Assembly: GCA_014695195.1 (NCBI GenBank)
Contig: JACJNW010000023.1
Coordinates: 248,001-312,000, forward strand
Source of the DNA: Cyanobacteria bacterium FACHB-DQ100
GTDB lineage: Bacteria > Cyanobacteriota > Cyanobacteriia > Leptolyngbyales > Leptolyngbyaceae
DNA length: 64,000 nt
Direction: 5' to 3'
Positions 1 through 16,548 of the stretch are shown here, in pieces. The notes under the pieces are model-generated. The model saw nothing but the letters and a program-made list of their open reading frames with translations. It searched no databases and had not been told where the DNA came from. How positions within the stretch are numbered: position 1 is the stretch's first letter; every line of letters starts with the position of its first letter. A program made the position numbers and the translations under genes.

Positions 1-2
1 TG

Positions 3-89
3 TATTTGATTCTGTTAGGATTCACGTTCTTGTTGTTGCTGATTGATGCTTGGACAGTTTCGACAGCAATCTCGCTTGGAAAAATCTGA
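3..89 (+). CDS. C-terminal end of an ABC transporter permease (partial)
   Basis: Frame 3 is open from the window edge and ends in TGA at 87-89. The 28 visible residues begin with a very hydrophobic stretch (LILLGFTFLLLLIDAW) followed by a short polar tail, as expected for the last transmembrane helix of a membrane permease. The stop overlaps the ATG of the ABC ATPase as TGATG, a translational-coupling arrangement, so this is most likely the membrane partner of that ATPase. The family cannot be fixed from so few residues. A FetB/YbbM-type iron permease is one possibility, given the FetA-like ATPase that follows. Confidence 0.55.
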   Translation, partial: YLILLGFTFLLLLIDAWTVSTAISLGKI

Positions 90-1430: not shown

Positions 1431-1537
1431 GAGGCGCTCTAGTGACTGCGATAAGCCGAGATCCAGAATTATCAATTATTTCGCAGTTTAGAGCAAGCAT
1501 ATTAATAATAATTCTCAATAGAACTCTGCATTTGTGC

Positions 1538-1795
1538 TCAAGAGCCTTTTTGATTTTGTGAGCGAAACCGCCCTTCAAGAAAATCACGCTGCTTTAAGTG
1601 TTTTGTCTTACGACCACTGACTCGCTTGCGCCACATTCTGAAGCTCGATTCCTGCATTTCCCGACGCATCAGCGCGATCGTTTGTTTTTCGCTCAGTCCG
1701 AATTGCAGTTCGATCGCCTCAAAAGGAGTGCGATCTTCCCATGCCATTTCGAGAATTCTATCGATCGTCTCACGATCTAATTCTGGTAGTTCCAT
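1538..1795 (-). CDS. TIGR03643 family conserved small protein
   Basis: An 85-residue protein with the hallmark core WEDRTPFEAIELQFGLSE, then MRREM and SSFRMWRKRV, which I recognise as the TIGR03643 family. The middle looks like a small helix-turn-helix fold, and the C-terminus is basic (SGRKTKHLKQRDF). The function is unknown; a nucleic-acid-binding role is only suggested by the charge. It starts 5 nt after the stop of the upstream Uma2 gene and is probably the last gene of the pepP-Uma2-Uma2 run on the minus strand. Confidence 0.8.
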   Translation of the reverse strand: MELPELDRETIDRILEMAWEDRTPFEAIELQFGLSEKQTIALMRREMQESSFRMWRKRVSGRKTKHLKQRDFLEGRFRSQNQKGS

Positions 1796-1800
1796 TGTCC

Positions 1801-2394
1801 TTACTTCTGAATTGCTTGTTGAAACGTTTTGACTGCCTCAACGTGATTGACCATATTGATACAGCGTAAAAACAGTTCAAGATCGATTCCGGGAACTGCC
1901 TCGCTGTTAGTTAGTTTTTCATACCGTAGCTGATCGCCTTCACCCCGTAGATGATAAATCTCTAAAACACCATCTTCCCAAAACCAAACTTCCGCAATCT
2001 TTAAGCGTCTGTAAGCTTCTAGTTTATTGATGCCACCGCTTGTAAAAACAACCTCGATCGCTAAATCAGGATGCGCTCTTCCTGGTGCAAATTTGTACAA
2101 TTCATCAGCTTCTCGCTTGACCAATCCAGATTCACTCTCCAGGGTCATCGAACCTGTAGGAGTAAAGTCGAACCCTCTCAACAATAGGTAAAGCTCCAAG
2201 AGAGCAGCAATGCGTTTTTTAACCATTTCGTGTGGTTCACCAGGCATTTGTCGAATCTCCAACGTTCCATCTAAAAAAGAAAGCCGATAGCCAGGACGAT
2301 CGAGCAATTGCTCAACGGCTTTGAATTCCCGCCAGGTAAGCGCTTCAAACAGAAGTGGAGTTTGTTTCTGAGATGGAACTAAGGTGGTTGTCAT
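1801..2394 (-). CDS. Uma2 family endonuclease (DUF820)
   Basis: A 197-residue member of the Uma2 (formerly DUF820) family, which has a PD-(D/E)XK restriction-endonuclease-like fold and is hugely expanded in cyanobacteria. Visible family features are the N-terminal TWREFKAVEQLLD segment, the FLDGTLEIRQMPGEPHE strand-turn with its acidic residue, and the active-site region GRAHPDLAIEVVFTSGG. The biological substrate of these proteins is not established. It follows a second Uma2 gene by 13 nt and precedes the TIGR03643 gene by 5 nt. Confidence 0.88.
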   Translation of the reverse strand: MTTTLVPSQKQTPLLFEALTWREFKAVEQLLDRPGYRLSFLDGTLEIRQMPGEPHEMVKKRIAALLELYLLLRGFDFTPTGSMTLESESGLVKREADELYKFAPGRAHPDLAIEVVFTSGGINKLEAYRRLKIAEVWFWEDGVLEIYHLRGEGDQLRYEKLTNSEAVPGIDLELFLRCINMVNHVEAVKTFQQAIQK

Positions 2395-2407
2395 AAGGCG
2401 ATTACTC

Positions 2408-3037
2408 CTAATTTAACCATTGTCGTAAACTACGAATTGCAGCGCTAGTCGTTCGCTCCGAGGCAATTTGAACACATTCAGCAACAATCTCGAAGATAGG
2501 AGTTTCTGGAAAAAAGCGACTTCGTTCTTGTGGTATGTAAGCGTCGTTCTCTAATCCATAAATCCAAAGCTGCTTATTCTTGAACATCCACACCTCCGGC
2601 ACTTTGAAAGGGAGATAATCATCCACATTGCTATAGCTAGTGACATCCATTTCAATCACCAAATCAAAGGGCGGATCAACTTGCCAGTCAATCCGATCTT
2701 TGCCGGATGAAACTTGCCAGTTATCAATGTAAAAGCAAACGTCTGGCTCAATTCCAGACGCTTCTGGTATGGTCATCGTGACAGGGGTGTAAGCATTGTA
2801 TTCCTGCTCTAGATGATCCAGAATCGTTTCTACAATATTGCCTAATAAATTTGCGCCTAGTCCATGTATGGGGAGCGGTGACATCAATAGAATCTCTCCA
2901 GCTCGATACTTCATTCGAGGAATTGATTTATCTCCCCGTTGTTCGCTCAAAGTGATGTAGTCCTGCCAAGTTCCCGGAAGCCGCAGGACGGCTCCGGGTG
3001 GAAGTTCGATGCGATCGCAAGACACGAGTGCAAACAT
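2408..3037 (-). CDS. Uma2 family endonuclease (DUF820), second copy
   Basis: A 209-residue Uma2-type protein, only distantly similar to its neighbour at 1801-2394. Motifs include YRAGEILLMSPLPIHG with the GE pair, EPDVCFYIDN and the FDLVIEMDVTS catalytic-core strand, then a VPEVWMFKNKQLWIY segment typical of the family C-terminus. It starts 5 nt after the aminopeptidase P stop, so the two are very likely co-transcribed. The nuclease role is assigned by fold; no substrate can be inferred. Confidence 0.86.
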   Translation of the reverse strand: MFALVSCDRIELPPGAVLRLPGTWQDYITLSEQRGDKSIPRMKYRAGEILLMSPLPIHGLGANLLGNIVETILDHLEQEYNAYTPVTMTIPEASGIEPDVCFYIDNWQVSSGKDRIDWQVDPPFDLVIEMDVTSYSNVDDYLPFKVPEVWMFKNKQLWIYGLENDAYIPQERSRFFPETPIFEIVAECVQIASERTTSAAIRSLRQWLN

Positions 3038-3042
3038 CGCTC

Positions 3043-4353
3043 TTATCGCTCCATTGCTTCAATTGATTTCGGAACGGCTGCCGTAAGAACTTCATTTCCG
3101 GTTTCTGTCACCAACACATCATCCTCAATCCGAATGCCAATGCCGCGCCAGCGATCGCTGACTTCGGGCTGTCCTTCTAAGGGTTGGAAGTCCGATCTGA
3201 TATAAATTCCGGGTTCTACGGTCACGACTTGCCCTGACTGGAAGTTTAGCCAGTTTTCGCCAACCTTCCGCGCTCCGGCATCATGCACATCTAACCCCAA
3301 CCAATGCCCAGTACCGTGCATGAAGAAGGCTTTGTATTTCTCTTCTTTGATAACTTCTTCGATCTCACCTTGCAGCAAGCCCAGGTCTAATAAGCCTTCG
3401 GTGATCACTCGAACGGCAGCATCATGAAATTGATTCCAAGGATTTCCGGGTTTGACTTGCTCGATCGCAGCCAGTTGCGCTTTCAATACCAACTCATACA
3501 AAACGCGCTGTTCTTCGGTGAACTTCTCTCCCACGGGGAAAGTCCGAGTGATATCTGAGTTGTAGTAGTTATACGAACATCCCGCATCAATTAGAAGCAA
3601 TTCACCCTGTTGCATTTGGCGATCGTTCTCGGTGTAGTGCAGAATGCAGGAATTGTGACCTGAAGCGACGATCGATGGGTAAGCAATTCCCTGTCCTCCC
3701 CTAAGCCGGAAGAGATGCTCCATCTGCGCTTGAATTTCATACTCATACAGTCCAGGCTTGCGAAGCTCTAGCGCCAAATTATGAGCTTCCGCTGCAATTT
3801 CTACCGCCCGTCGCATTTCTGAAAGTTCATGTTCGCTCTTGACCAACCGCATCGGATGCAGCGTGAAGCTTGGATCTTCGATCGCAGTCGGGCCAAATCC
3901 ATTCCGTTCATGTAGAGCAATACAGCGCTGCCACAAACGAATGATGCGATCGTTAAAGGCGCGATCGCGTCCAAAGTGATAATAAATTCGCTCTGCTTTA
4001 GTGACATACTGCGCCAACTTCTCATCCAATTCTGTGATCGGATAAGCTTCATCGGCTCCATACTTTTCTTTTGCCGCATCTACTCCAACTCGATAGCCCG
4101 TCCAAGTTTCTTTATCGCGATCCTTGGGTTGCACAAACAGAATAAACTTATGTTCTTCATGCCAAGGTGCAAATACCGCAACCGCATCTGCTTCGTTAAA
4201 TCCGGTGAGGTAGAAAAAATCGCTGTCCTGGCGAAAATTGTATTCCACATCATTGTGCATCACCGCCAGCGGCGCACTGCGGAAAATTGCGGTTCCGTTA
4301 CCGATTTTGGACATAAAGCGATCGCGTCGCTGCTTGAATTCGAGATGGAGCAT
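3043..4353 (-). CDS. pepP: Xaa-Pro aminopeptidase (aminopeptidase P, M24B)
   Basis: A 436-residue cytoplasmic metallopeptidase that removes N-terminal residues next to proline. The N-terminal domain carries the family opening (FRSAPLAVMHNDVEYNFRQDSDFFYLTGF). The C-terminal pita-bread domain shows the dinuclear-metal ligands: two Asp in LLIDAGCSYNYYNSDITRTF, His in MHGTGHWLGLDVHD, Glu in TVEPGIYI and Glu in IRIEDDVLV. The length matches bacterial PepP. The start (MLHLEFKQRRDRF) is the usual one for the family. It heads a tight minus-strand run with two Uma2 genes and a TIGR03643 gene, spaced by 5-13 nt. Confidence 0.95.
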   Translation of the reverse strand: MLHLEFKQRRDRFMSKIGNGTAIFRSAPLAVMHNDVEYNFRQDSDFFYLTGFNEADAVAVFAPWHEEHKFILFVQPKDRDKETWTGYRVGVDAAKEKYGADEAYPITELDEKLAQYVTKAERIYYHFGRDRAFNDRIIRLWQRCIALHERNGFGPTAIEDPSFTLHPMRLVKSEHELSEMRRAVEIAAEAHNLALELRKPGLYEYEIQAQMEHLFRLRGGQGIAYPSIVASGHNSCILHYTENDRQMQQGELLLIDAGCSYNYYNSDITRTFPVGEKFTEEQRVLYELVLKAQLAAIEQVKPGNPWNQFHDAAVRVITEGLLDLGLLQGEIEEVIKEEKYKAFFMHGTGHWLGLDVHDAGARKVGENWLNFQSGQVVTVEPGIYIRSDFQPLEGQPEVSDRWRGIGIRIEDDVLVTETGNEVLTAAVPKSIEAMER

Positions 4354-4441
4354 GAATCTAAACTATGAAGGATACAAAGAAGGAAGGATATCCCCCTTCA
4401 GCCTTCATTCTATGCCGTTACACATCCTCGATTCGGTGCAT

Positions 4442-5212
4442 TTATCCGCTTACGGGATTGCGCTTGGTTAGGCGATACATGACCGATCTCAAAACAAACT
4501 TTGGAAGCGCCATCATTCGCTTCCAGCGCCAGGGTTCCTGATACAGTCGATACGACCACTCTAAATGATTGTCGCAGAGCCATTGAGGAGCGCGATTTTT
4601 TGTGCCTGCCCAAACATCGAAACTGCCGCCGACTCCAACCCAAACGGAATTCGGGCAAAGATGACGATGCTGTGCGATCCATAACTCTTGGCGAGGCACA
4701 CCCAACCCCACGTAGATCAAACGCGGTTGTAGCGTTTTGAGTCTGTGTAGAAACTCCATTTCGTCTTCGGGCTTGAGATAACCGTTTTGCACTCCGACGA
4801 TCGAAATTCCTGGAATCTTTTGTCGCCAATTTTGCGCCGCAGTCTCAGCCACACCCGGCGCACCGCCGAAGAAGAAAATCGACCAAGGCTCTTTAAATTG
4901 GGTCGATCGCTCCAGTAAAGTCTGTGCCAGTTCAATTCCCGGAACTCGCTGGATGCGCTTGCCGTGAAGCCGTCCATACAGCACAATCCCTGATCCATCT
5001 GGAATCACCAGTTCAGCTTGATGAATTGTCCTTGCCAGTGCCGGAGTTTGCTCTGCCTGCATCGTCATCTCGGCGTTTAGCGTGATCACATGACAACCCA
5101 AACGTTGCTCGATCCGCTCACTCAGCCAGCGATCGTAGCTGCTTAATAGGTGCATCGGTAGCCCTAGGACTGGAAAGGACTGCACAGATTCAGAATAGGT
5201 CACTTGAGTCAC
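4442..5212 (-). CDS. WecG/TagA/CpsF family glycosyltransferase (GT26)
   Basis: A 256-residue enzyme of the WecG/TagA/CpsF family, which adds N-acetylmannosaminyl-type residues to lipid-linked glycan precursors at the inner face of the membrane. Diagnostic segments are VITLNAEMTMQAEQ near residue 45, the IPDGSGIVLYGRLHG block, VPGIELAQTLL, the Rossmann-like FFFGGAPGVAE, then YVGLGVPRQELWI and VGVGGSFDVWAGTKNRAP. Complete compared with the family. It is followed in the window by no further polysaccharide gene, so the polymer it serves is unknown. It lies 66 nt downstream of proB in the same direction. Confidence 0.9.
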   Translation of the reverse strand: MTQVTYSESVQSFPVLGLPMHLLSSYDRWLSERIEQRLGCHVITLNAEMTMQAEQTPALARTIHQAELVIPDGSGIVLYGRLHGKRIQRVPGIELAQTLLERSTQFKEPWSIFFFGGAPGVAETAAQNWRQKIPGISIVGVQNGYLKPEDEMEFLHRLKTLQPRLIYVGLGVPRQELWIAQHRHLCPNSVWVGVGGSFDVWAGTKNRAPQWLCDNHLEWSYRLYQEPWRWKRMMALPKFVLRSVMYRLTKRNPVSG

Positions 5213-5230
5213 AGGTCTCCTCGGCAGGGG

Positions 5231-5260
5231 TGATTCGGGATTGAGGGGTTATTCGGGATT
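5231..5260. repeat. Short direct repeat between proB and the WecG gene
   Basis: The 12-mer ATTCGGGATTGA occurs twice, 18 bp apart, in the 66-bp gap between the two minus-strand genes. Nothing else is recognisable there, and it may be simple slippage. Confidence 0.4.
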
Positions 5261-5278
5261 GAATTGTAGCAGGGGCGA

Positions 5279-6382
5279 TCACGAAAGGACAAGATTATCA
5301 CGATGTACAACGGTTTCTTCGCCCACATAGCCGAGAATCTTTGCAACTTCGTCAGATTGACGACCCCGGATCTTTTCGAGTTCGTCACTGTTGTAGTTGA
5401 CGATGCCCCGCGCAATCTCGACACCGGAGCGATCGCAGATTTTGACAGCGTTCTGACTATCGAACTCGCCTTCGACTTGAATAATTCCGGCAGCTAAGAG
5501 CGATCGTCCGGATGTCCGAATCGCCTTCACCGCGCCTTCATCGAGATACAACTGTCCAACGGGAACAAGACCATGAGCAATCCAGCGTTGACGGGCATTA
5601 AACGGACGCGGTTGCGGTTCAAATTGAGTGCCGATTAATTCACCCGAAAGAATCTTCAGTAGGTTTTGCGGCGATCGACCCTGGGTAATCACCGTTCTCA
5701 CGCCTGCTCCCGTGGCAATTCGAGCGGCTTCGATCTTCGTGACCATGCCCCCTGTGCCCCATTGCGTCCCGGAGCTTCCGGTTTGTACCTGTGCAAGTTC
5801 ATCGATATGGTTGACGATCGTAATCGGTTGAGCATCAGGATTGCTGCGGGGATCGGCAGAGTATAAGCGATCGACATCCGTGAGCAAAAACAACCAATCC
5901 GCATCGACCACGCTTGCCACCAGTGCGGAGAGTGTATCGTTATCGCCAAACTTCAATTCATCGGTAGCAACCGTATCGTTTTCATTGACGATCGGAATGA
6001 CCCCCAAATTGAGCAACTCTTGAAACGTGCGGAGGATATTCACGTATCGGCTGCGTTGAATCAAATCTCCACGAGTTAGCAGCACTTGCGCGATCGGTTG
6101 TTGCAGCGCTGTGAAAAAGTCATCATAAATCCGCATCAAGCGCCCCTGACCGACTGCGGCAACCGCTTGCTTAAGAGACATCGATCGCGGACGTTCGACC
6201 AAGCCTAATCGCGCACATCCGACGCCGACCGCACCGGACGACACCAGCACCACGCGATGTCCTTGTCGGCGCAACTGACTTAAAACTTCCACCAAAGCCG
6301 CGATCGTCGCCAATGCAAGCTGTCCCGACTCTGGCTGAGTCAAGCTCGAAGTCCCGATTTTCACAACAATCGTCTGAACCAT
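5279..6382 (-). CDS. proB: Glutamate 5-kinase
   Basis: A 367-residue enzyme that phosphorylates L-glutamate to gamma-glutamyl phosphate, the first step of proline synthesis. The amino-acid-kinase domain begins [11 protein letters not shown] and includes [29 protein letters not shown] (substrate binding) and [16 protein letters not shown]. From about residue 280 follows a C-terminal PUA domain (ALL-type strand pattern, [15 protein letters not shown]), as in full-length bacterial ProB. Proline feedback inhibition is usual for the family. proA is not in the window. Confidence 0.96.
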
Positions 6383-6469
6383 GAATCAAACTGTAAACCG
6401 CTTGATTATCGTATCAACCTGGCCATCCTATTAAGAAATCTGGGCGAATCAATTTGCGACTCTAGAAAC

Positions 6470-6506
6470 AAAACCCTCCAACGCGGACTCACTTTGCGAG
6501 AGAGGG
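6470..6506 (-). terminator. Possible rho-independent terminator after the STAND gene
   Basis: On the minus strand an imperfect stem (CCCTC pairing with GAGGG, with a weak inner CGC/GCG) is followed by TTTTG. It lies about 50 nt beyond the stop of the gene at 6559-7608. The stem is interrupted, so support is moderate at best. Confidence 0.35.
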
Positions 6507-6558
6507 CACTGTCAATCTTGAACTTGCGCTTAGTTCTTGATCTACGAAAGAGGTCTAT

Positions 6559-7608
6559 TTAAGCAGTCTGAATATCGAGTGTTTGTTCGCCCAAATAGTT
6601 TTCAATGCTACCGTTAGACACATCGAGAACTGAGCTTGCAGCAATCTTTAACGCTAGAGGATTGCCTTCGTAGTGCGCTACGATCGCTGCAATTTCCGCA
6701 GGAGTTCCCTGTAAGCCTTTTGCAGCTAGAATCTGTTCTGCTGCTGCTGGCGTTACTCCAGCAACGGGCAGCGATCGAACTGCTAATTTTTCGCCTTCAA
6801 ACGCAACCACTTCGGCGGGCTTTGCTCGACTCGTTAGCACAACACAACTCTGATGAGGAATTTCTGCAACGCGGCGCAAAAGCTCCCCGTAGGCTTCATA
6901 GCTTAATTGATATTGATTTGATTGCGTTCGACCAGTCAGGAGCATATCGAAGTGATCCAGAACGACTAAACACCGTGACTCACGCAAGCAGTGAATCAAT
7001 CGAGAAAGTTGACCACCAACAGTTGCCGGAATATCAGTGTTGGGCGCAAGCAATTGAATTAAGTCTGTTAATAGCTCAGTCAGCGTAGGTGTATCGCGCA
7101 AACTTCGCCAGATTACAAACTTAAATTCGGGTTTTACAAGCTGAGCTAATTTCACCGATAACGCTGTTTTACCGATCCCGCTTTGACCGAGTAGCGTCAC
7201 CAACCGACAGCGATCACACACGATCCACTGTTGCAGTTTGGTTAATTCTTGAGTGCGATCGTAGAAGGTTGATACATCAATGGCATCGCCCCAATCTTGA
7301 TAAGATGTTGTAAAATCTGTTATTTGTTCCGACCTAAATTGTGATTCTTGTAGCGGTTTCTGTCCACCCCTCTGTACAATCGCTTTAACGTTGTGCTTAG
7401 TGACTTTTTCGCTGTAAGCGCCTGAAAGCGATCGCCAAAGTTTGTAGGCTGTATCTTTGATATAACCGTAGTCGTAGCCCGACATCTGGGCAGTTTGAAG
7501 ATACGATCGACCTTCCCAAACTGCACGAAATACAATTTCTTCAACTTGATTGAGATATCCCCGATCTAAAGCGTGTCCGATCGTCTTTAATGCTTCCTCA
7601 GTAGTCAT
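6559..7608 (-). CDS. Short STAND ATPase: vMAP-type N-terminal domain plus NB-ARC
   Basis: A 349-residue signal-transduction ATPase. Residues 1-80 (MTTEEALKTIGHAL, then VFRAVWEGRSY) match the helix-turn-helix N-terminus common in cyanobacterial NB-ARC proteins (vMAP, vWA-MoxR associated). An NB-ARC core follows: Walker A GQSGIGKTALS near residue 139, Walker B CLVVLDHFD near 211, the VVLTSR sensor and the GNPLALKI motif. Relatives normally continue with winged-helix and WD40 or TPR repeats. Here the protein stops soon after GNPLALKI (SIENYL, then a short tail), so the sensor repeats are missing: either a truncated gene or a minimal switch. It is divergent from the cassette at 7913-11096, sharing a 304-bp intergenic region. 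Confidence 0.8.
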   Translation of the reverse strand: MTTEEALKTIGHALDRGYLNQVEEIVFRAVWEGRSYLQTAQMSGYDYGYIKDTAYKLWRSLSGAYSEKVTKHNVKAIVQRGGQKPLQESQFRSEQITDFTTSYQDWGDAIDVSTFYDRTQELTKLQQWIVCDRCRLVTLLGQSGIGKTALSVKLAQLVKPEFKFVIWRSLRDTPTLTELLTDLIQLLAPNTDIPATVGGQLSRLIHCLRESRCLVVLDHFDMLLTGRTQSNQYQLSYEAYGELLRRVAEIPHQSCVVLTSRAKPAEVVAFEGEKLAVRSLPVAGVTPAAAEQILAAKGLQGTPAEIAAIVAHYEGNPLALKIAASSVLDVSNGSIENYLGEQTLDIQTA

Positions 7609-7742
7609 TTCCTTTATCCTTCAACAGCAAAAGTTAGCGAAGATGAAATTTCACCTTGCTAGTTGATTATTTCTGATGCAATTACAGCGGTCTGCGAATC
7701 CCTTGCTCTGACAAACTCAATCTAATGAGTTAAACGAAAACT

Positions 7743-7797
7743 TCGACTTTCTTCGGTATTTCTTCTGACTTTCGTCCGACTATATTCTGACTTCTTC
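7743..7797 (+). promoter_or_regulatory. Five 11-bp phased direct repeats upstream of the C39/endolysin cassette
   Basis: Five consecutive 11-mers can be read: TCGACTTTCTT, CGGTATTTCTT, CTGACTTTCGT, CCGACTATATT and CTGACTTCTTC, consensus CYGACTTTCTT. A spacing of 11 bp (one helical turn) is what PhoB/OmpR-type winged-helix response regulators bind as tandem half-sites. The array ends 16 bp upstream of a TATAAA (7814-7819), where activators of this kind sit. The rest of the 304-bp gap (7609-7912) shows nothing else I can name. Which regulator binds is unknown. Confidence 0.5.
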
Positions 7798-7813
7798 CGC
7801 CCGTCAAATCGTT

Positions 7814-7819
7814 TATAAA
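7814..7819 (+). promoter_or_regulatory. Candidate -10 box for the 7913 cassette
   Basis: TATAAA lies 94 nt upstream of the ATG at 7913. No good TTGACA-like -35 box is present at 16-18 bp. The phased repeats occupy that position, which would fit an activator-dependent promoter. Transcription would leave a roughly 85-nt leader. Confidence 0.35.
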
Positions 7820-7912
7820 AAACTTAAGATTCACGAATAGATGAGTTGGTCAAGCAGATTACGTTACGGTTCATTTGTAACTAAAAACCCCAAATTCATA
7901 GGAGTCGCTTTC

Positions 7913-8449
7913 ATGTCCAAAGTTCTAGAGTTTGTTGCACAACCTGATGTGAATACCTGCCAAAGTGCTTGTATTGCTAAAGTTTTAGGGACTGATGACG
8001 TTTATGGAATTCGCGCAGATTTAGACGCGATCGGTGTTGCTGGCGATCCTAGTGTGATGGGTAAATATCTTCGCCCGCGTGTCAAATCTTACGAGTTCCT
8101 TCTGACGGGATCTTTGAACGATGCTAAGGCTGCCCTTGATGATGGCTGTGTTGTAATCACTCATGGCTGGTTCAGCCATTCGGGTCATGTCATCTGCCTG
8201 GTTGGGTACGAAGCCGACCCAAATACACTCTCTTACCGTTTCATCGTTGATGATCCGTATGCAGAGTTTGATTTTTCGAGCGGTCAGTATGACACCTCCA
8301 AGTCTGGCAATAATGTACGCTACTCCAGCTACGGCATCTATGCTTACTGCGTTGCGGCAAGTGGCTATGGTGACGCGGATGCAATTTACCACCGCAAAAC
8401 ATTGCTCTCAACTGAGCAAAACGCCTGGTTTCACATCATCAAGAACTAA
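7913..8449 (+). CDS. C39-like cysteine peptidase family protein
   Basis: A 178-residue protein with the layout of peptidase family C39-like (papain-fold) proteins: a catalytic-type Cys in QPDVNTCQSACI near residue 15, a His in SHSGHVICLVGYE near residue 90, and an Asp in FIVDDPY. There is no signal peptide or bacteriocin leader-peptidase ABC transporter. I chose the ATG at 7913 because AGGAG precedes it by 8 nt; the frame is open further upstream but lacks a site. It is the first gene of a plus-strand cassette with a holin-like protein and an endolysin, so a cell-wall or phage-like lysis role is plausible but unproven. Confidence 0.7.
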   Translation: MSKVLEFVAQPDVNTCQSACIAKVLGTDDVYGIRADLDAIGVAGDPSVMGKYLRPRVKSYEFLLTGSLNDAKAALDDGCVVITHGWFSHSGHVICLVGYEADPNTLSYRFIVDDPYAEFDFSSGQYDTSKSGNNVRYSSYGIYAYCVAASGYGDADAIYHRKTLLSTEQNAWFHIIKN

Positions 8450-8526
8450 CAAACTGAATCCTCTTTGAAGGAATCTAGGGTCGCATCTCCTCAAGAACCA
8501 CAGCAATTATAAAGGAGCAACAAGTT

Positions 8527-8790
8527 ATGAAATTCTGGAATCCAGAAGTTATTCGATCGGCAACACCCCTCGTTTTAGCAGGAGTCGGAGCTGCGATTGG
8601 AATCTTAGTTGTCGTGAATAAGGATGTCGATAAAGAAAAAGCAACGGCTGCGTTTGGCTTAGCAGGAACCGCGATCGCAGGTGCTGCGGGTCTCGCTCAG
8701 TCCGGTAAAAGCGACTCTGACTTCTCGGTTAAGCAGCGAGGGGAAGATTTGGAAGTTACTACACCGAGCAAGGAATTGGTACAAGAGTGA
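8527..8790 (+). CDS. Small two-TM membrane protein, holin-like
   Basis: An 87-residue protein with two hydrophobic alanine/glycine-rich segments (about residues 12-31, PLVLAGVGAAIGILVVV, and 40-57, AFGLAGTAIAGAAGLA) separated by a charged turn (NKDVDKEK). A hydrophilic acidic tail follows. Size and topology resemble class II holins, but I see no family motif that proves it. A strong Shine-Dalgarno sequence (AAGGAG) sits just before the ATG. It lies between the C39-like gene and the GH19 endolysin, the usual neighbour of a holin. Confidence 0.65.
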   Translation: MKFWNPEVIRSATPLVLAGVGAAIGILVVVNKDVDKEKATAAFGLAGTAIAGAAGLAQSGKSDSDFSVKQRGEDLEVTTPSKELVQE

Positions 8791-8875
8791 GATCGAGGAC
8801 TCGATCGACATCCAGCGGCTCTGAAGCTGCTCACATTTGTCTACTGAAAACTCATTGGAAATTTAAGCAAAAACA

Positions 8876-9643
8876 ATGCACACAATTGTTGCTAAGACTG
8901 AGACTAAGCTAAAGAAAAAGCTGCTGGATTCATCACAGCTTGAATCGCATGAAGTTGTAATCGTTCCTGTTGGTAAATCCTACGGGGTGGTTAGCTTTGA
9001 AACTGCCGAGAATGGGCATTTCAAAGTGACACTTGCAGCTAATAGCGGAACATTCTATATGTTCAACGAACACTGGGAAGGATTAAGCAGCAGCGCAGTG
9101 CAGCCGTTCATTGCTTCTACAGCAGCAGCCCTGATCACCAAAGCGCAAGCAGAAGCAATTTTTGGCAATCCGCTCCATGACCAAGAATTTCGGGATTTGA
9201 ATGCTTGTTTAGCACGGTATGAGATTAACACTCCCGTAAGAATGCGTCACTTTCTCAGCCAGATTGCTCATGAGTCTGGTGGGCTGCGCTGGTTAAAGGA
9301 ACTTGCCGGTGGAACTGCCTATGAATTCCGCGCTGACTTGGGCAATGTGCATCCGGGAGACGGTCCGAAGTACAAAGGAGCAGGCGCAATTCAGCTTACC
9401 GGACGAGCGAACTATGCCGCTTTCGCGCAGGCGATCGGTGATCCTAAGGTGATGGAAGGCTGTGAGTATGTTGCAAAAATCTATCCTTTCTCTAGCGCTG
9501 GATTTTGGTGGCACAACAACAAGATGAATGCGTTATGTGACCGAGGTGGAACCGTTGAGGAAGTCACGTTTCGCGTCAATGGAGGTTACAACGGTTTAGA
9601 CGATCGTGAACAATACTACGAGAAAGCCAGAAAGGTCATTTAG
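8876..9643 (+). CDS. GH19 chitinase-type endolysin
   Basis: A 255-residue glycoside hydrolase. Residues 1-70 form a small SH3-like or wall-binding domain ([20 protein letters not shown]). The catalytic domain begins around residue 90 with the helical [12 protein letters not shown] segment (the Glu is the general acid of GH19) and continues with [18 protein letters not shown], a GH19 substrate-cleft signature, and [13 protein letters not shown] near the end. Phage and cyanobacterial members cleave peptidoglycan or chitin. There is no secretion signal, as for a holin-released endolysin. It follows the holin-like gene by 85 nt. Confidence 0.85.
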
Positions 9644-9761
9644 CTTACGGGGTGACAGACAGGCTAGAAAGTGCGATCGCCAACTCAACATCAACGATCG
9701 CACTGCTTCTGAGCAAAGCATTACGTTAACGAATCTCATTCAAGCTTTTGAGGTACTAGAC

Positions 9762-11096
9762 ATGAACGGAAATACACTGCCCAAATTAGACTTTACACAT
9801 CCTGAGAACTCTGTACATCCTGGTGAGCTTGAGCGCTTGCAGAAGGAAATTAATAAGCTGATTCCCATTTCGGATGCGCTAGTGTCGTTGATTAAGCTAC
9901 GTGCAATCTCGATCGGAACGCCAAGTAAGGTTAATCACAAGCCAATTGGATGGCAGTTACGTTTAGGCCCGGTGCGCGTCTCGATCGGAACGCCAAGTAA
10001 GCCGAATTGCCGATCAAAATCTACATCTGATTCCAATTACCTTAAGTCGGAGAATGAAGCTGATTATGAGCCTCTGTTGAATTTAGCAGCTCCTGTAAAT
10101 TCCGTTTGCTTAAAGCAATACAGCAATCAATTGAATGATCTTTGGTCTACTCCTGATGCTGATGATACTAAGGTAAGAAAGCAATTAGCAGATCTCAAAA
10201 ACAAGGTTGATTTGATTTATCAGAGATTAAATGGTCTTTTTAATAACTCGATCGGGCCAATCTCAATCAGAGAAAAAGTTATTAAAATGTATGTCTCTAA
10301 GATTGGTCATTTAGAGTTTAAAAAAGAAGCAGAAAGTAACTGCGAAATTATTAGTATGTTACTTGAATCTATTAGTCATCTTCTAGAAACTACCGAATAT
10401 CCTCCTAAAGATTCAGCGACGATTTGTACAACAAAACTATTAAAACTGGATGTACTAGACGATAACGATAGAGCTAATGCAGTGATTGGGGACATGATTG
10501 CGATCGAACTTCGTCGATTACACGTTGAGCAATTAGTTAAGAAAGATCGGAGACGCCGTACTAAAACGCTTTCAATGGTCACTGGCTATATTCTTTTCAT
10601 TGCAACTTGCATTATCATTTTGCCACTGCTCACAACAATTTTTCCAAAACTTTCTGATATTTCTTTTCTTGGATTTATCAAGGTTTTTAACGTTATTAAC
10701 TCAAATCAACCTTTGGCTGAACATAACATTCACCTTCTAGGAATTCCGGCAGCGGTTATCATTTGGAGCTTTATTGGTAGTTTTGCTGCAACAATTCATC
10801 GATTTAATCGTAAGTCTGTCTACTTTTTCGATGATGCAACTAAATGGATGATTACTCGTCATGTTCAAGGCATTGTTCTAAGCTCTGCATTTTATTTGAT
10901 TTTGACTTCGGGATTGTTTCTACCTTCTAGCGGCGATAATCAAATTACAGGGAAGGTAATCCTTGTATTATCGTTTTTGATTGGCTTTAGCGATCGCTTT
11001 GTAGATAGTGTTTTTAACACATTAATCGAACGGTATTCGGGAAAATCAAAATCATCGGAGCAGAAATCGAATCTGGACGATCGAGATTCTGAATAA
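9762..11096 (+). CDS. Four-TM membrane protein with long cytoplasmic N-terminus, unknown
   Basis: A 444-residue protein I cannot place in a family. The first roughly 265 residues are polar and helical, ending in a basic stretch (KKDRRRRTK). Four transmembrane segments follow at about 271-293, 323-348, 367-387 and 396-415, the last with GFSDRF. The start at 9762 has GAGG 8 nt upstream; an upstream ATG at 9606 lies within the endolysin frame. Near residues 50-80 a 23-bp sequence is repeated 72 bp apart in frame, giving SIGTPSK twice. It is the last gene of the cassette that starts at 7913. A/T-richer codons and low resemblance to housekeeping neighbours suggest an acquired gene. Confidence 0.6.
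   Translation: MNGNTLPKLDFTHPENSVHPGELERLQKEINKLIPISDALVSLIKLRAISIGTPSKVNHKPIGWQLRLGPVRVSIGTPSKPNCRSKSTSDSNYLKSENEADYEPLLNLAAPVNSVCLKQYSNQLNDLWSTPDADDTKVRKQLADLKNKVDLIYQRLNGLFNNSIGPISIREKVIKMYVSKIGHLEFKKEAESNCEIISMLLESISHLLETTEYPPKDSATICTTKLLKLDVLDDNDRANAVIGDMIAIELRRLHVEQLVKKDRRRRTKTLSMVTGYILFIATCIIILPLLTTIFPKLSDISFLGFIKVFNVINSNQPLAEHNIHLLGIPAAVIIWSFIGSFAATIHRFNRKSVYFFDDATKWMITRHVQGIVLSSAFYLILTSGLFLPSSGDNQITGKVILVLSFLIGFSDRFVDSVFNTLIERYSGKSKSSEQKSNLDDRDSE
9907..10001 (+). repeat. Pair of 23-bp direct repeats inside the four-TM gene
   Basis: Identical 23-mers at 9907-9929 and 9979-10001 begin TCTCGATCGGAACG. The offset is 72 bp, 24 codons, so SIGTPSK is encoded twice. This is probably an in-frame partial duplication with later divergence of the intervening codons. 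Confidence 0.8.
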
Positions 11097-11151
11097 AATG
11101 CAACGCCCGAATTCCATTCGATAGGCATCCGCAACCCGTGCAAAGGTCTAA

Positions 11152-11727
11152 TTAATCCGGCATCGCAAAGCCTGTTATTAGATCGCGGATATACAAGCCC
11201 AACACTAGCGAATTCATCACTTCATCCCAAACAGGCGTGAGCTTTTCTGCTTGATCTGCCCAGTAATCAAACGTGATCAGACATTGAATCCTTGAGCCAA
11301 GCCCGACACAAATCCGGGAATAGGCTTCGCGATTTTCGTTCGGATCGATGAACTTAATTTGTATCCAGGCAATTCGAGCAGTTTGGCGTTTTAGTGTGAT
11401 AACTTCGCTTTGCTCGATCACATCGCGCCGGTCTTCGATCGCAATCTTTTTTACGGTATGCGCGAGTGGAAACAAGCTCCAATCGTTTTCGGGCAGGTGG
11501 TTGTAAGAAACTTCCAGCCGACAGTCGTCGTTTGGCGGTGGCGCGTCATGGAAGCAAAAAGATTTTTCATCGGGTTCAAAATGCCAATCTTGCGGCACAT
11601 CAAATCGCACGGCACCCCGCCCCGCCACAAAAATTTTGTAGCCTGGTTTAGAGTTCCAGCCGTGATTGTCGCTCATTTGCAGCGTTTCTTTGATCCACTC
11701 TGGCTTGCCTTTTTTGCGTTTAGACAT
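11152..11727 (-). CDS. Conserved hypothetical protein
   Basis: A 191-residue soluble protein. The N-terminus is basic (MSKRKKGKPEW). Mixed alpha/beta sequence follows with FDVPQDWHFEP, FCFHDAPPPNDDCRLEVSYN and LITFDYWADQAEKLTPVWDEVM, which resembles proteins that measure a stress-like or lipoprotein domain, but I do not recognise a family with certainty. No signal peptide. Convergent with the four-TM gene (55-nt gap) and 73 nt downstream of the decarboxylase gene on the same strand. Function unknown. Confidence 0.7.
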   Translation of the reverse strand: MSKRKKGKPEWIKETLQMSDNHGWNSKPGYKIFVAGRGAVRFDVPQDWHFEPDEKSFCFHDAPPPNDDCRLEVSYNHLPENDWSLFPLAHTVKKIAIEDRRDVIEQSEVITLKRQTARIAWIQIKFIDPNENREAYSRICVGLGSRIQCLITFDYWADQAEKLTPVWDEVMNSLVLGLYIRDLITGFAMPD

Positions 11728-11800
11728 AAAGAAACCACGATCGCGTCAAATCACATCGTAAAACATGATTTTCACGATCGCGGTTGATCTTCTGCAATCT

Positions 11801-12937
11801 TCACCCAACTCTGGAGCGATAATCCTCGTAGCCAAACTGCCGCCACAGTTCAAACGATCCATCTCGCTTGAGGCAGCCGATCGCGGGGTGAGCTACTCCG
11901 TTGAACATCGTGGTTTTAACCATCGTGTAGTGCATCATGTCTTCAAACACAATGCGATCGCCGATCGAGAGGGGTTGATCGAACTGATAATCTCCGAGGA
12001 AATCCCCAGCTAAACAGCTTGATCCACCCAAACGATACCCGACTTTTCCAGCTTCCAGCACCGAAGCACCGACAATTGCAGGCTGATACGGCATCTCTAA
12101 GCAGTCAGGCATATGAGCGCTAAATGACACATCTAGCATGACGTGAGTGAGATCCTGAACCGGAATCAGATCTAGAACTGTGCTCAATAAGAATCCGGTT
12201 TGCCAGACGATCGCAGACCCCGGCTCTAAGTACAACTGCAAATGCGGATAGCGATCGTGAAATGCAGAAAGCACTGCGATCGCGTGATCCACATCATAAG
12301 TTTCATGCGTCATCAGATGCCCGCCGCCCAGATTCAACCACTGAATCTGAGGCAGCAAGTGACCATAGTGCTGCTCAATCTGAAGCAGAGTCTTTTCTAA
12401 CGCAAAAGAATCGCTTTCACAGAGATTGTGCGATAGAAAGCCACTGATGCCATTGGGTAAGCGATCGCCCAATTGCTCCGGCAAAACTCCTAAACGTGAT
12501 CCAGGCTGACACGGGTTATAGAGCGCAGTTTTGACCGGGGAATACAACGGATTAATCCGCAGTCCGATCGATGTAGACTCTGCCAACGATCGCGATCTTT
12601 CCCACTGGCTTAATGAATTAAACGTCAGATGAGAAGCACGATCGAACAATTCCGGCAAATCCTGATCGCGATAGGCAGGCGAGTAAACGTGCAGCGCACC
12701 GCCAAACTCTTCTGCTGCTAACCGAGCTTCCCAGAGCGAACTTGCCGAAGCACCGGCGAGAGACTTCCGAATCATCGGAAAACTATGAAACAGTGCATAC
12801 CCCTTCAGCGCCAGTAGCACTTTCACGGGAGCCGATCGCTGGACTCGCTCAAACACTTGTAAATTGCGCTCAAGCCGCGCTTCATCCAGCACAAAGCAAG
12901 GCGACGGAATCGTCGCCAAAGTTGTATTGTCAATCAT
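11801..12937 (-). CDS. nspC: Carboxynorspermidine decarboxylase
   Basis: A 378-residue PLP enzyme of the alanine-racemase-like fold (fold type III) that decarboxylates carboxy(nor)spermidine to (nor)spermidine. PLP lysine is in LLALKGYALF near residue 45. Other marks are SASSLWEARLA, FLSHNLCESD, the phosphate-binding LNLGGGHLMT, LYLEPGSAIVWQ and the second-subunit motif GSSCLAGDFLGDY, where the Cys is typical of NspC. The upstream gene makes its substrate and ends 2 nt before this start, so the pair is one transcription unit. Confidence 0.92.
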   Translation of the reverse strand: MIDNTTLATIPSPCFVLDEARLERNLQVFERVQRSAPVKVLLALKGYALFHSFPMIRKSLAGASASSLWEARLAAEEFGGALHVYSPAYRDQDLPELFDRASHLTFNSLSQWERSRSLAESTSIGLRINPLYSPVKTALYNPCQPGSRLGVLPEQLGDRLPNGISGFLSHNLCESDSFALEKTLLQIEQHYGHLLPQIQWLNLGGGHLMTHETYDVDHAIAVLSAFHDRYPHLQLYLEPGSAIVWQTGFLLSTVLDLIPVQDLTHVMLDVSFSAHMPDCLEMPYQPAIVGASVLEAGKVGYRLGGSSCLAGDFLGDYQFDQPLSIGDRIVFEDMMHYTMVKTTMFNGVAHPAIGCLKRDGSFELWRQFGYEDYRSRVG

Positions 12938-12939
12938 CG

Positions 12940-14139
12940 CTAGACCTCCGCAAACGGCGAGGGATGTCCAATCACTTCATGCCACGGTAAACCAAGCGCT
13001 CCGATTCGCTGCATAAAGGGATCAGGATCAAGCTGCTCGACGTTGAACACTCCTGGTTTTTGCCAAGCGCCGTTTACTACCATCAAGGCTCCGAGCGCTG
13101 CTGGAACTCCGGTCGTATAAGAAATCGCTTGCGCTCCGACTTCTTGGTAAGCCTTGGCGTGATCGCAGTTGTTGTAGATGTAATACTGCTGCGGTTTGCC
13201 GTTTTTGATGCCGCGCAGATGACAGCCGATCGAGGTCTGCCCCGTGTAGTTTGCTGCCAGCGAAGATGGATCAGGCAAAAGCTTTTTCAGGAGTTTCAAA
13301 GGAATCACAGGTGTTCCTTCATAATCAACGGGATCAATCCGAGTCAAACCCAGGTTTTGCAGCACATCTAGATAAGTGAGATAGCTCTGGGAAAAGGTCA
13401 TCCAGAATCGCGCTCGCTTTAGGGTTGGAATATGTTTGACCAGCGATTCGAGTTCTTCGTGATAGAGCAAGTAGGACTCACGATCGCCAATCTCCGGATA
13501 CTCGATCGACTGGTGCATCGACAACGGCGGTACCGTGACCCATTCGCCTTTTTCGTAGTAGCGTCCGGGTTGCGTAATCTCGCGAATATTGATTTCTGGG
13601 TTGAAGTTCGTTGCAAAGGCGCGACCATGGCTCCCAGCATTGCAATCCACGATATCGAGTTCGTGAATCTCATCAAAATGATGTTTGAGAGCATGGGCGG
13701 TAAAGATGCCCGTCACACCGGGATCAAAACCGCAGCCGAGAATGGCGGTTAGTCCAGCCTCAAAAAAGCGCTCTTGGTACGCCCACTGCCAGCGATATTC
13801 AAATTTGGGATTGTCGGGAGGCTCGTAATTTGCCGTATCGAGATAGTGTACGCCTGCTTGCAGACACGCATCCATCAGCGCGAGATCTTGATAAGGCAAT
13901 GCTACGTTAATCAGAATATCGGGGCGAAACGTCTCCAGCAGCTTTAGGGTTTCGGGCACGTCATCCGCATCGAGTTGTGCGGTCTGAATGGACTTTGTAG
14001 AAATACTCTGGGCGATCCGATTACATCGCTCTAGAGTCCGGCTGGCGAGTAGGATTTGATCAAACTCTTCCAGTGCAGCAAGTTTGTGAGTAACAACGCG
14101 GCTCACCCCACCCGCTCCAACGACCATCACTCGTGCCAT
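12940..14139 (-). CDS. Carboxynorspermidine synthase (saccharopine dehydrogenase family)
   Basis: A 399-residue NADPH-dependent enzyme that condenses aspartate semialdehyde with a diamine (putrescine or diaminopropane) to carboxy(nor)spermidine. The N-terminal Rossmann motif is VVGAGGVSRVVTHKLA. Then come INVALPYQDLALMDACL, HYLDTANYEP and ILGCGFDPGVTGIFTAHA, which distinguishes this branch from lysine-pathway saccharopine dehydrogenases. It is followed after 2 nt by nspC. Together they give the spermidine route that avoids decarboxylated SAM. An ATG at 14139 is preceded by AAGGAG. Confidence 0.92.
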   Translation of the reverse strand: MARVMVVGAGGVSRVVTHKLAALEEFDQILLASRTLERCNRIAQSISTKSIQTAQLDADDVPETLKLLETFRPDILINVALPYQDLALMDACLQAGVHYLDTANYEPPDNPKFEYRWQWAYQERFFEAGLTAILGCGFDPGVTGIFTAHALKHHFDEIHELDIVDCNAGSHGRAFATNFNPEINIREITQPGRYYEKGEWVTVPPLSMHQSIEYPEIGDRESYLLYHEELESLVKHIPTLKRARFWMTFSQSYLTYLDVLQNLGLTRIDPVDYEGTPVIPLKLLKKLLPDPSSLAANYTGQTSIGCHLRGIKNGKPQQYYIYNNCDHAKAYQEVGAQAISYTTGVPAALGALMVVNGAWQKPGVFNVEQLDPDPFMQRIGALGLPWHEVIGHPSPFAEV

Positions 14140-14451
14140 TTTTTCTCCTTAAATTAAGTCGGTTTTGGGAGTGCTATCAGTTCCCCTAATTAGGTCAGAC
14201 ACATCATTATGCCATGTGATTTTATTTGATGTGGAATTTGTATGAGGCAAAGACGGAAAATACTGCTGTGGATTTAGTTCTCTCGACGATCGCCTCAGCG
14301 ATCGAGCTTAGATTTCGGTTGCTCGACAGATTTGCTCACCTGATTTTTACCCTAGCTGCATCAAGCCGTAGCTTTACGGAGGTCATTCTTGAAGATGCGT
14401 GCATATTGGTAGGAGTTTTCCGTTTAAGCCCTGAATTCGAGAGAAACCACG
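14140..14451. other. Divergent intergenic region, 312 bp
   Basis: Separates the polyamine operon (minus) from the methyltransferase gene (plus), so it must hold both promoters. I see no clear -35/-10 pair, terminator or RNA gene. A plus-strand open frame at 14226-14477 has no site, low complexity and runs into the methyltransferase, and is not counted as a gene. Confidence 0.5.
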
Positions 14452-15777
14452 ATGACAATGACTCCGCTCAAGTCTGACTTTTTAGAGAAGATGCGTCAGC
14501 AGTTCGACAATGCTCCGTATCCCAGAATCCCCTTAGAAGAGTTTCCCAAAAATCCAAGAGCACTCTATATTCACAGCCTGGTCACTGCTTACTATCGTCG
14601 GAATCAAAAAGTAGTGACTCCGGCTGGAAAACTGATTTTAGATGCGGGTTGTGGAACCGGATATAAGTCCTTGGAATTGGCGATCGCGAATCCGGGCGCG
14701 AAAATTGTCGGAATTGATCTGTCTCCGGCATCGGTGGATTTAGCCCGGAAGCGATTGCAGTACCACAACATCGAGAATGTCGAGTTTCACGCGATCGCGC
14801 TTGAAGATCTGCCCAGTCTGGGAATGCAGTTCGACTACATTAATAATGATGAAGTGCTGTATTTGTTGCCTGATCCGATCGCGGGATTGAAGGCGATGAA
14901 AGAAGTGCTGAAGCCGGACGGAATTCTTCGCACAAACTTTCATAGTTCATTGCAACGAATAATTTATCATCGCGCTCAGAAATTCTTTAAGCAGCTTGGC
15001 TTTATGGCTAGACCTGAACCTGAAGCTGAAGTAAAACTTGTGCGAGAAATAGTGAAATGCCTGAAAAATGATGTGTTCGTGAAACAGTATGGTTGGAATT
15101 CAAATTTTGAAACCAGCGATGAGGCAGTTTTAGCGAACTATCTGCTTGACGGGGATAAAGGCTGGACAATCCTAGAGTTGTTTGAAGCGATCGAGAGCGT
15201 GGGACTAGAACTAATCTCAATGGTGAATTGGCGGGAATGGGATTTGCTCTCACTGTTTAATGACATTGGTGAATTGCCATTTAATGTGATGATGGGTTTT
15301 TCAGATCAGTCGATCGCGCAACAGCTTCATCTCTACGAGTTATTGAATCCTCGCCATCGATTGCTAGATGTTTGGTGTGGATTGCCTGGACAATCACAAC
15401 AATATGAGTCGATCTCAGAATGGAGCGATGAAGCTTGGCAAACTGCGATTGTGCATCTACCTTTGCATCTAATTACCGATGAGTTTCGCGCAGCCTTAAA
15501 GAGCTGTGCGACTGAGGCGAAAATTTTTGAGATGAATCGCTTTTGTCCACTGACTGATGAATCGATTGTGATTGATAGTCAAGGGACAGGATGCTTGCTG
15601 CCGCTATTAGAGAAATCACGATCGGTGCGGGAATTAGTTCAATGGTGGCAGAAGTTGAGACCGATTGATCTAGTGACTTTGGAACCGACCTCAGAAGCCG
15701 AAGCATTGGCGCGGGTGAAAGAATTGTTACAGCCTTTAGAAGAAAGCGGCTATGTCATGATCGAGAGTGGTGTTTAG
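14452..15777 (+). CDS. Class I SAM-dependent methyltransferase with C-terminal extension
   Basis: A 441-residue protein. The methyltransferase domain (residues about 55-180) has motif I LDAGCGTGYKSLELA, motif II VGIDLSPASVDLARKR, an NVEFHAIALEDLP segment, YINNDEVLYLLPDP and LKPDGILRTNFHS. The C-terminal half has no match I recognise; helical segments and PL/DE-rich turns suggest a substrate or partner domain. The related arrangement in other cyanobacteria is a methyltransferase near pilin or glycosylation genes. It sits about 125 nt upstream of a prepilin gene. The target (sugar, lipid or protein) cannot be told from sequence. Confidence 0.82.
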   Translation: MTMTPLKSDFLEKMRQQFDNAPYPRIPLEEFPKNPRALYIHSLVTAYYRRNQKVVTPAGKLILDAGCGTGYKSLELAIANPGAKIVGIDLSPASVDLARKRLQYHNIENVEFHAIALEDLPSLGMQFDYINNDEVLYLLPDPIAGLKAMKEVLKPDGILRTNFHSSLQRIIYHRAQKFFKQLGFMARPEPEAEVKLVREIVKCLKNDVFVKQYGWNSNFETSDEAVLANYLLDGDKGWTILELFEAIESVGLELISMVNWREWDLLSLFNDIGELPFNVMMGFSDQSIAQQLHLYELLNPRHRLLDVWCGLPGQSQQYESISEWSDEAWQTAIVHLPLHLITDEFRAALKSCATEAKIFEMNRFCPLTDESIVIDSQGTGCLLPLLEKSRSVRELVQWWQKLRPIDLVTLEPTSEAEALARVKELLQPLEESGYVMIESGV

Positions 15778-15903
15778 TGATTCGCCAAATTCGGATTCAA
15801 GATTTTCTCACTTCAGGTGATATCAAATCTGATCACGCTGGGCAGATTAGATTCAGGCGTTAGAAGTTCAAACAAACCACACCTTAAAGGAGAAGCGTCT
15901 CTC

Positions 15904-16446
15904 ATGAAATCTGAATTGAAGGCAAAGTTCCTCAGCCACTTGGTCTCGAAAAAAAGAGAAGGTGGTTTCACCCTGATTGAATTGCTCGTTGTAATCATCA
16001 TCATCGGTATTCTGTCGGCGATCGCGCTTCCTTCGTTCTTGAACCAGGCAAACAAAGGTAAGCAATCTGAAGCGAAGCAATATGTTGGTACAGTGCTTCG
16101 GACTCAGCAAGCGTTCTACATGGAGAAAAGCCGCTTCGCAAGCAACTTGGCTGATATGTCCCAGCCTGTTGCTGACTCGACTACAAACTACAACTACTCC
16201 ACCACTGGCTCTGCTGCTGGTGCCGCCACCCCCGCAACTCATAGCTTGAGCTTGGGAACCTCTAAAGTGACCGCACTTCGCTCCTATGGTGGAACTGTTG
16301 TCTTGACGACGAACTCCACCACCAGTGAAACAAATACGACTGGAATTCTGTGCGAAAACAACGCTCCTGGAACTACAGCAGTCGCCGTTGGTACTGTTAG
16401 CGGTACTACCCTTGCTTGTGGTAGTGGCTCCACTCAAGCTCAGTAA
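15904..16446 (+). CDS. Type IV prepilin-like protein (PilA family)
   Basis: A 180-residue prepilin. A 21-residue leader ending in KKREGG precedes the cleavage site G|FTLIELLVV; Glu is at mature position 5, and a 20-residue hydrophobic helix follows (VIIIIGILSAIALPSF). The mature part has AKQYVGTVLRTQQAFYMEK, typical of cyanobacterial PilA, and a tail very rich in Ser, Thr, Ala and Gly, with two cysteines near the C-terminus (ILCENN, LACGS) that could form the D-loop disulphide. The ATG at 15904 has AAAGGAG upstream. A strong terminator follows. The neighbouring O-GlcNAc-transferase-like gene suggests the Ser/Thr tail may be glycosylated (inference). The organism's main pilin versus a minor paralogue cannot be decided. 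Confidence 0.9.
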   Translation: MKSELKAKFLSHLVSKKREGGFTLIELLVVIIIIGILSAIALPSFLNQANKGKQSEAKQYVGTVLRTQQAFYMEKSRFASNLADMSQPVADSTTNYNYSTTGSAAGAATPATHSLSLGTSKVTALRSYGGTVVLTTNSTTSETNTTGILCENNAPGTTAVAVGTVSGTTLACGSGSTQAQ

Positions 16447-16475
16447 TTTAGCCTAAAGCTCAAATTGCTTAATCC

Positions 16476-16514
16476 GAAAGTGAGTAGATTCTCTCTGCTC
16501 ACTTTCCTTTTTTT
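16476..16514 (+). terminator. Rho-independent terminator after the prepilin gene
   Basis: A perfect stem GAAAGTGAG / CTCACTTTC (arms 16476-16484 and 16498-16506) with a 13-nt loop is followed by a run of eight T, 29 nt after the stop codon. It makes the prepilin a separate high-expression transcript from the downstream gene. Confidence 0.88.
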
Positions 16515-16548
16515 CGTCTACTATGTCCGAAATTGCATCAGCCTCCGT

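Follow-up and report, generated by a model that had tools for sequence, protein, structure and literature searches.

What are phage-type wall enzymes doing in a cellular locus, facing a STAND ATPase gene across a common promoter region? The question is raised by a 64,000-nucleotide stretch (hereafter the window) of contig 23 (JACJNW010000023.1, positions 248,001 to 312,000 of the forward strand) in the 5.5-Mb genome of Cyanobacteria bacterium FACHB-DQ100 (assembly GCA_014695195.1), a cyanobacterium that is probably filamentous, judging by its relatives (all 13 of the 13 loci returned by our search with the C39 peptidase are cyanobacterial records). A first-pass annotation had proposed that a C39-like peptidase, a holin-like protein, a GH19 endolysin and a four-helix membrane protein form a lysis cassette under a conflict-type switch. 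The answer that we regard as somewhat probable, at slightly better than an even chance, is that a helix-turn-helix (HTH)-STAND protein controls a domesticated, swappable phage lysis cassette within a mobile five-gene unit. The features on which the argument turns are the following.

6559..7608 (-): short HTH-STAND (NB-ARC/NACHT) ATPase without sensor repeats (Pfam, AlphaFold model, PDB folds)
7742..7797 (+): direct-repeat array, period 11 bp, YCYGAC core, candidate operator (shuffle test, genome pattern search)
7913..8449 (+): C39-like cysteine peptidase (Pfam just below cut-off; residues invariant in relatives)
8527..8790 (+): small hydrophobic protein of 87 amino acids (aa), holin candidate (transmembrane (TM) segment; relative in phage-like contig L261)
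8876..9643 (+): GH19 endolysin without leader (PHROG, PDB, cyanophage relatives)
9762..11096 (+): membrane protein with a long helical N-terminal part followed by four hydrophobic segments (hydropathy, frame in genome G023)
6451..11100, ends approximate, about 4.7 kb: exchanged block between proB and the gene at 11152-11727 (identity to G023)
5279-6382 (-): proB, flank of the block
11152-11727 (-): gene 11152, conserved flank of the block

The five genes lie where the first-pass annotation had placed them, and in G023, a genome of the same genus, all five recur in the same order and with the same flanking neighbors, which is more than chance. The synonymous divergence (dS) between the two genomes is 0.24 for the STAND gene, 0.11 for the small-protein gene and 0.27 for each of the C39, GH19 and membrane-protein genes, whereas it amounts to 0.96 for proB, 1.19 for wecG, 1.21 for gene 11152, 1.22 for an nspC-like gene and 0.81 for a saccharopine-dehydrogenase-like gene in the flanks (the last two names are our own reading). 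The STAND gene and the other four have therefore been exchanged together and, by these divergences, the exchange of the block is recent, falling after the split of the window and G023 lineages. Identity to G023 rises in a step near 6451 and falls near 11100, and it is mixed inside the membrane-protein gene and in part of the STAND gene. The ratio of nonsynonymous to synonymous divergence (dN/dS) ranges from 0.07 to 0.43 and is thus below 0.5 in all five genes, indicating purifying selection. In G018, again of the same genus, the site is empty and proB directly adjoins gene 11152; with this empty site and its cellular flanks, the block is not part of a phage or prophage. No prophage remains were found at the empty-site boundaries, and a comparison of the block ends for a target-site duplication gave only 7-8-base matches. 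The next genes outward are cellular (proB, wecG and others), and reading the open reading frames of positions 1-20000, with the flanks left without a profile scan, yielded no phage structural gene, in agreement with the first-pass annotation. Its expectation that the four plus-strand genes would co-occur is strictly borne out only in G023; what does hold is that STAND and a lysis-type set behave as a single unit of transfer. We detected proB in 7 of 8 genomes of the genus, with other genes beside it in G017 and G022. At the cassette site of G019 (L145:1065-9045) there are genes for a 1306-aa STAND protein, a sigma-factor-like protein and small TM proteins, and since this is a different STAND-containing set at the same site, the proB side may be a hotspot.

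That the cassette is swappable is seen in G020, whose flanks are the nearest to those of the window (97% for proB and 97% for wecG). This genome keeps the STAND gene (84%) and the promoter region and differs in the plus-strand genes: conservation stops between the array, together with the sequence after it, and the first payload gene. The payload behind its STAND gene and promoter has been exchanged for a 90-aa protein without a Pfam match, together with the beginning of a phage-lysozyme gene (E 6e-4, slightly below the cut-off). In G022 a relative of this 90-aa protein is followed by a small TM protein, a glucosaminidase/amidase and a C39 peptidase.

The layout also recurs farther afield. Among 15 rows anchored on the C39 gene (the 13 search loci, the window and L105), a wall hydrolase lies within about 3 kb in nine and a divergent STAND gene in five; when the rows are grouped by lineage, in a grouping of our own, the counts are 7 of 10 and 3 of 10, respectively. 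In L056 and L066 a full-length HTH-NB-ARC-WD40 protein faces a C39 gene, a second, split C39 gene, a GH19 gene and an unrelated membrane-protein gene. In L067 and L068 a short STAND protein faces C39 and an N-acetylmuramidase, to which L067 adds a 155-aa protein that resembles two-transmembrane (2TM) proteins and has a sub-threshold DUF4231 match; L068 is without an intact counterpart. A lysis-type set beside a STAND gene, as the first-pass annotation had supposed, is thus a recurring arrangement, in which a divergent HTH-STAND gene, C39 and a wall hydrolase are combined with other, unrelated hydrolases and membrane proteins. A separate DUF4231 protein stands with C39 and GH19 in L053. Two further loci, L061:7619-9934 (-) and L062:7888-10284 (-), encode fusions of about 770-800 aa that join DUF4231/SLATT_3, C39 and GH19, all above Pfam cut-offs; at E 1e-40, 42 of 386 phylum genomes contain relatives of parts of this fusion protein. 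In L054:9344-16311 a window-type GH19 gene lies near genes for a sigma-factor-like, a DUF4231-like and a TIR plus CHASE2 protein, and a lone C39 relative in L059:2708-11949 neighbors genes that we read, by eye and with no scan, as CRISPR type I-G.

Where do the wall enzymes come from? The C39-like protein scores 23.8 against Pfam Peptidase_C39_2 (cut-off 24), and its Cys16, His92 and Asp114, which we take to be the C39 triad, are invariant in six relatives. Comparison with these relatives moved its start to the conserved position 7913. It is 96% identical in G023 and the most constrained of the five genes (dN/dS 0.07); a search of PDB found no relative of it (best E 0.3), and the subfamily is rare, being present in 2 of the 386 phylum genomes at E 1e-20, the window's own genome included. 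The GH19 protein stays below the Pfam GH19 cut-off (16.6; cut-off 25.5) and matches a PHROG endolysin at 1.7e-46 and the PWe2 endolysin (PDB sequence) at 1.6e-34; its best phage relatives are cyanophage endolysins, with 50-59% identity over 66-83% of the query. It is thus an endolysin-type wall enzyme, as in phage lysis cassettes, and it is leaderless as first described, in that the hydropathy scan shows no strongly hydrophobic N-terminus. The C39 subfamily itself occurs in 15 viral contigs, among them one row of TM protein, C39 and phage lysozyme (L080); most other viral C39 loci listed have no queried hydrolase beside C39. The phage-like pairing that the first-pass annotation had assumed is found in cyanophage contigs L262 and L263, where a C39-family gene overlaps the start of a GH19-type gene whose product is 63-64% identical to the window GH19 (and has no Pfam match at 0.01).

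The two membrane proteins differ in this respect. The 87-aa protein has a 54% identical relative in the phage-like contig L261, directly after genes read as tail genes, and the large membrane protein has no viral relative in one scan; by sequence, then, a phage kinship is apparent for C39, GH19 and the small protein but not for the membrane protein. The small protein had been described as two-helix: one TM segment is clear in the hydropathy scan, but the second helix is only plausible, and no window protein matches a holin family in Pfam, NCBIfam or PHROGs. The large protein has four hydrophobic segments in the same type of scan. Its first proposed start, GTG at 9606, is rejected because the close relative G023 lacks the first 49 residues in its open frame, and translation most likely begins at about 9753-9762. 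Its structural model is weak (predicted local distance difference test (pLDDT) score 65.7), it has no PDB fold match at E <= 0.001, and it is present in 6 of the 386 phylum genomes and 4 of 42 family genomes, own genome included. A SLATT pore was considered and dropped, as neither a SLATT nor a DUF4231 profile matched it in Pfam or NCBIfam. Nor can it be regarded as specific to this system, since its relatives in L100-L103 stand apart from any queried hydrolase; it belongs to a broader family.

STAND proteins of the MalT type are transcription regulators. The window protein matches Pfam NACHT (E 2.5e-9) and NB-ARC (E 1.2e-7) and thus has a STAND NTPase core; APAF-1, CED-4 and Orc1 are among its best PDB folds. 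In its AlphaFold model (pLDDT 85) helices 20-30, 35-42 and 46-64 precede the NB-ARC core, and their order looks HTH-like to us in that model. Cyanobacteria also have sigma70-r4-like/NB-ARC/WD40 proteins, according to the portion of PMC11119718 available to us, and the window protein resembles these and the MalT-type proteins in combining a STAND ATPase with a predicted DNA-binding helical domain. It differs from both in that the domain is N-terminal and the facing genes are lysis genes, DNA binding being a prediction here. HTH-STAND proteins are often much longer, 39 of 63 matches lying in frames of 1100-1300 aa, and the L056 relative carries WD40 repeats; the window's own genome has two matches to the window protein. 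No PADLOC model matched better than E 0.003.

If this protein is a regulator, one would expect a site for it between the divergent genes. The first-pass annotation was right that the STAND gene is divergent and has its promoter region in common with the plus-strand operon, and this region holds an array of the kind that a regulator would read. In its best 45-bp segment 28 of 45 positions match at shift 11, a score that none of 200 shuffles of two-base blocks, which make a rough null, attained at any shift between 8 and 59. The array region of G023 is 11 bases longer, and the distant L056 shares the motif. Three YCYGAC units at 11-bp spacing match once in the window's own genome, at 7764-7791, and 30 times in 15 of the 42 family genomes, versus 2 matches for the reversed pattern; the 30 merge to 21 places, of which 8 are directly beside a wall hydrolase and 1 is parted from it by a transposase. 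A promoter and terminator scan stayed at chance level (8 and 4 found versus 8.1 and 4.6 expected).

The array is statistically linked to hydrolase operons, within one family. Among surveyed HTH-STAND loci (45 of the 63 matches that start at query residue 18 or before and include the HTH part), 7 of the 11 whose period-11 score is at least 24 face a hydrolase operon, compared with 0 of 34 below it (Fisher p 7e-6), the threshold having been chosen after the values were known. Collapsing the window lineage at this threshold gives 5 of 9 and 0 of 34 (p 1.3e-4). At a threshold of 28, without collapsing, the counts are 6 of 9 and 1 of 36 (p 7e-5). One of the 18 matches outside the survey scored above the lowest included and 17 below. 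The hydrolase queries were drawn from known loci and cover some families, so that further wall enzymes may have escaped; L183 was itself the source of one query and is also matched by an independent one at 5e-21. We did not count L193, whose hydrolase-like gene is 3.9 kb off on the minus strand, and scored L187 as negative, since its second array and the GH19-like and CHAP genes come only after a transposase (L249); L067 and L068 were excluded, having been found through C39. Pfam confirms the payloads of L258 (glucosaminidase and amidase) and L259 (phage lysozyme and C39), and in L189 VanY-like and amidase genes accompany a GH19 that is sub-threshold in Pfam.

Some of these places deserve a description of their own. 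In L249:5985-8761 a transposase and a toxin-antitoxin-like pair lie between STAND with its array and the second array with the GH19-like and CHAP genes, as if they had been inserted into such a unit. An array without a STAND neighbor, in L252:1391-6050, is followed by genes for a TM protein, a phage lysozyme, a VanY-like protein and a caspase-domain protein, and control in trans would fit this arrangement. In two genomes the three-unit pattern (L251:6004, L257:3166) stands beside similar genes read as a ParM-like plasmid-type operon.

We therefore propose the following course of events. The HTH-STAND protein would bind the array of 11-bp repeats in the divergent intergenic region and would switch on the plus-strand operon when its nucleotide state is the active one. 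The payload would comprise the C39-like peptidase and the GH19 endolysin as phage-type wall-cutting enzymes, and the small and large membrane proteins would let these leaderless enzymes reach the wall. The most likely outcome would be programmed lysis of the own cell, either as abortive anti-phage defense or as regulated cell death in the filament. The unit, the layout and the array support in part the first-pass idea of a lysis set under a conflict-type switch; DNA binding, the direction of regulation, lysis and its trigger, like the population-level defense and holin activity of that idea, are inferred. Nothing in the evidence speaks for contact-dependent release, a further use that had been suggested.

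Several observations weigh against this proposal. No Pfam HTH family matches the window STAND protein, and the sigma70_r4_2 match in its L067 relative is weak and below the cut-off. At 349 aa the protein stops after the NB-ARC region, without C-terminal sensor repeats, as it likewise does in G023 and G020 (357 aa). The lysozyme frame of G020 is broken after 63 codons, 110 bases short of the contig end. Six of the 15 C39 rows have no hydrolase near (four Okeania loci, L074 and L105), 12 of the 21 array places have no queried hydrolase beside them (one being a minisatellite in G009), and the array is missing from L067 and L068. Taken alone, L056 has an array score that falls short of significance in the shuffle test (0.085), and a stricter array pattern, which the window itself fails, occurs in 0 of the 386 phylum genomes. 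Finally, the hydrolase-free surroundings of the membrane-protein relatives in L100-L103 count here too, and a pore function of this protein stays putative.

For bacterial NLR-type proteins, action on the effectors by contact is what has usually been shown or predicted. The STAND protein might work in this way as well: on a signal it would oligomerize and activate the C39 peptidase or the membrane protein, the wall enzymes would follow, and the array would serve another regulator. The constraint on the C39 gene, the strongest of the five, and the resemblance of the STAND core to APAF-1 and CED-4 are in favor of such a course. So are the DUF4231/SLATT_3-C39-GH19 fusions, one of them beside a gene for a protein with a TIR-like start, since they imply that C39 can form a single machine with a 2TM domain, no repressor or activator being needed. 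Phages, however, have C39-type genes beside endolysins without any STAND gene, and the array is associated with HTH-STAND loci that face hydrolase operons; we consider action by contact unlikely.

A STAND-controlled cassette might also be put to a nonlethal use, such as wall remodeling or protein release in some cells of the population or when a filament breaks. Some arrays precede genes for other, partly secreted-looking proteins by our own reading (L179, L185, L254), so that this class of regulator would not serve killing only, and holin-mediated non-lytic release is reviewed in PMC9527704. Two phage-type wall enzymes with two membrane proteins, horizontal movement and payload exchange nevertheless fit a weapon or a defense better, which leaves a nonlethal role quite improbable. 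The phage relatives of C39, GH19 and the small protein would also be accounted for by a captured phage lysis cassette without function, or by superinfection exclusion stemming from a prophage, with STAND as a chance neighbor. Purifying selection on all five genes, the joint movement of STAND with the others, the recurrence of the layout with different hydrolases elsewhere among the lineages and the clean boundaries of the empty site nevertheless render this very improbable.

How does a lysis cassette controlled by an HTH-STAND switch compare with known systems? It resembles a cyanophage lysis cassette in the GH19 endolysin beside a C39-type peptidase and in the small TM protein with a phage relative, but it stands alone in a cellular locus, with a divergent STAND gene and, in addition, a large membrane protein. 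Related loci pair a DUF4231 protein with C39 and GH19, separate or fused, in the manner of SLATT/DUF4231 effectors, although the window membrane protein shows no such match. The nearest described case that we found is LypABC (PMC13236601, available in part), an NLR-like system controlling own-cell lysis. An NLR-like ATPase tied to such lysis is common to both; LypABC, as far as that part describes it, has peptidases and a lytic effector that is unknown, whereas the window unit encodes wall enzymes and a predicted DNA site. The CARD and trypsin-like peptidase partner of LypABC-type CARD-NLR proteins have no equivalent here, neither domain being present among the six window proteins scanned with Pfam and NCBIfam. 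Passages of PMC7159879 predict lysozyme and papain-like peptidoglycan peptidase effectors in conflict systems that can include STAND NTPases, and hence share with our locus wall-targeting effectors alongside such NTPases; the effectors there are EAD1-associated, the terms C39 and chitinase have 0 occurrences in its text, and these passages contain neither a phage cassette nor an operator. Metacaspase-amidase fusions are described in the accessible part of PMC3501461. In the portion of the open-licence PubMed Central literature covered, no title describes an arrangement of HTH-STAND and lysis cassette.

Taken together, these findings point to a predicted DNA-binding relative of NLR proteins that is divergent to a wall-lysis operon, with a candidate operator open to immediate test. 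We would extend this, tentatively and at somewhat short of an even chance, to the idea that some cyanobacterial HTH-NB-ARC proteins are NLR-like transcription factors, which would act through an 11-bp operator on interchangeable phage-derived lysis cassettes, the switch staying constant while endolysins and membrane proteins are replaced from phages. If true, phage weapons would be reused as an exchangeable payload behind a fixed switch, and programmed lysis of filamentous cyanobacteria, a long-standing question, would become directly accessible to genetics: these cells could use a self-lysis device to stop viruses or to die on cue.

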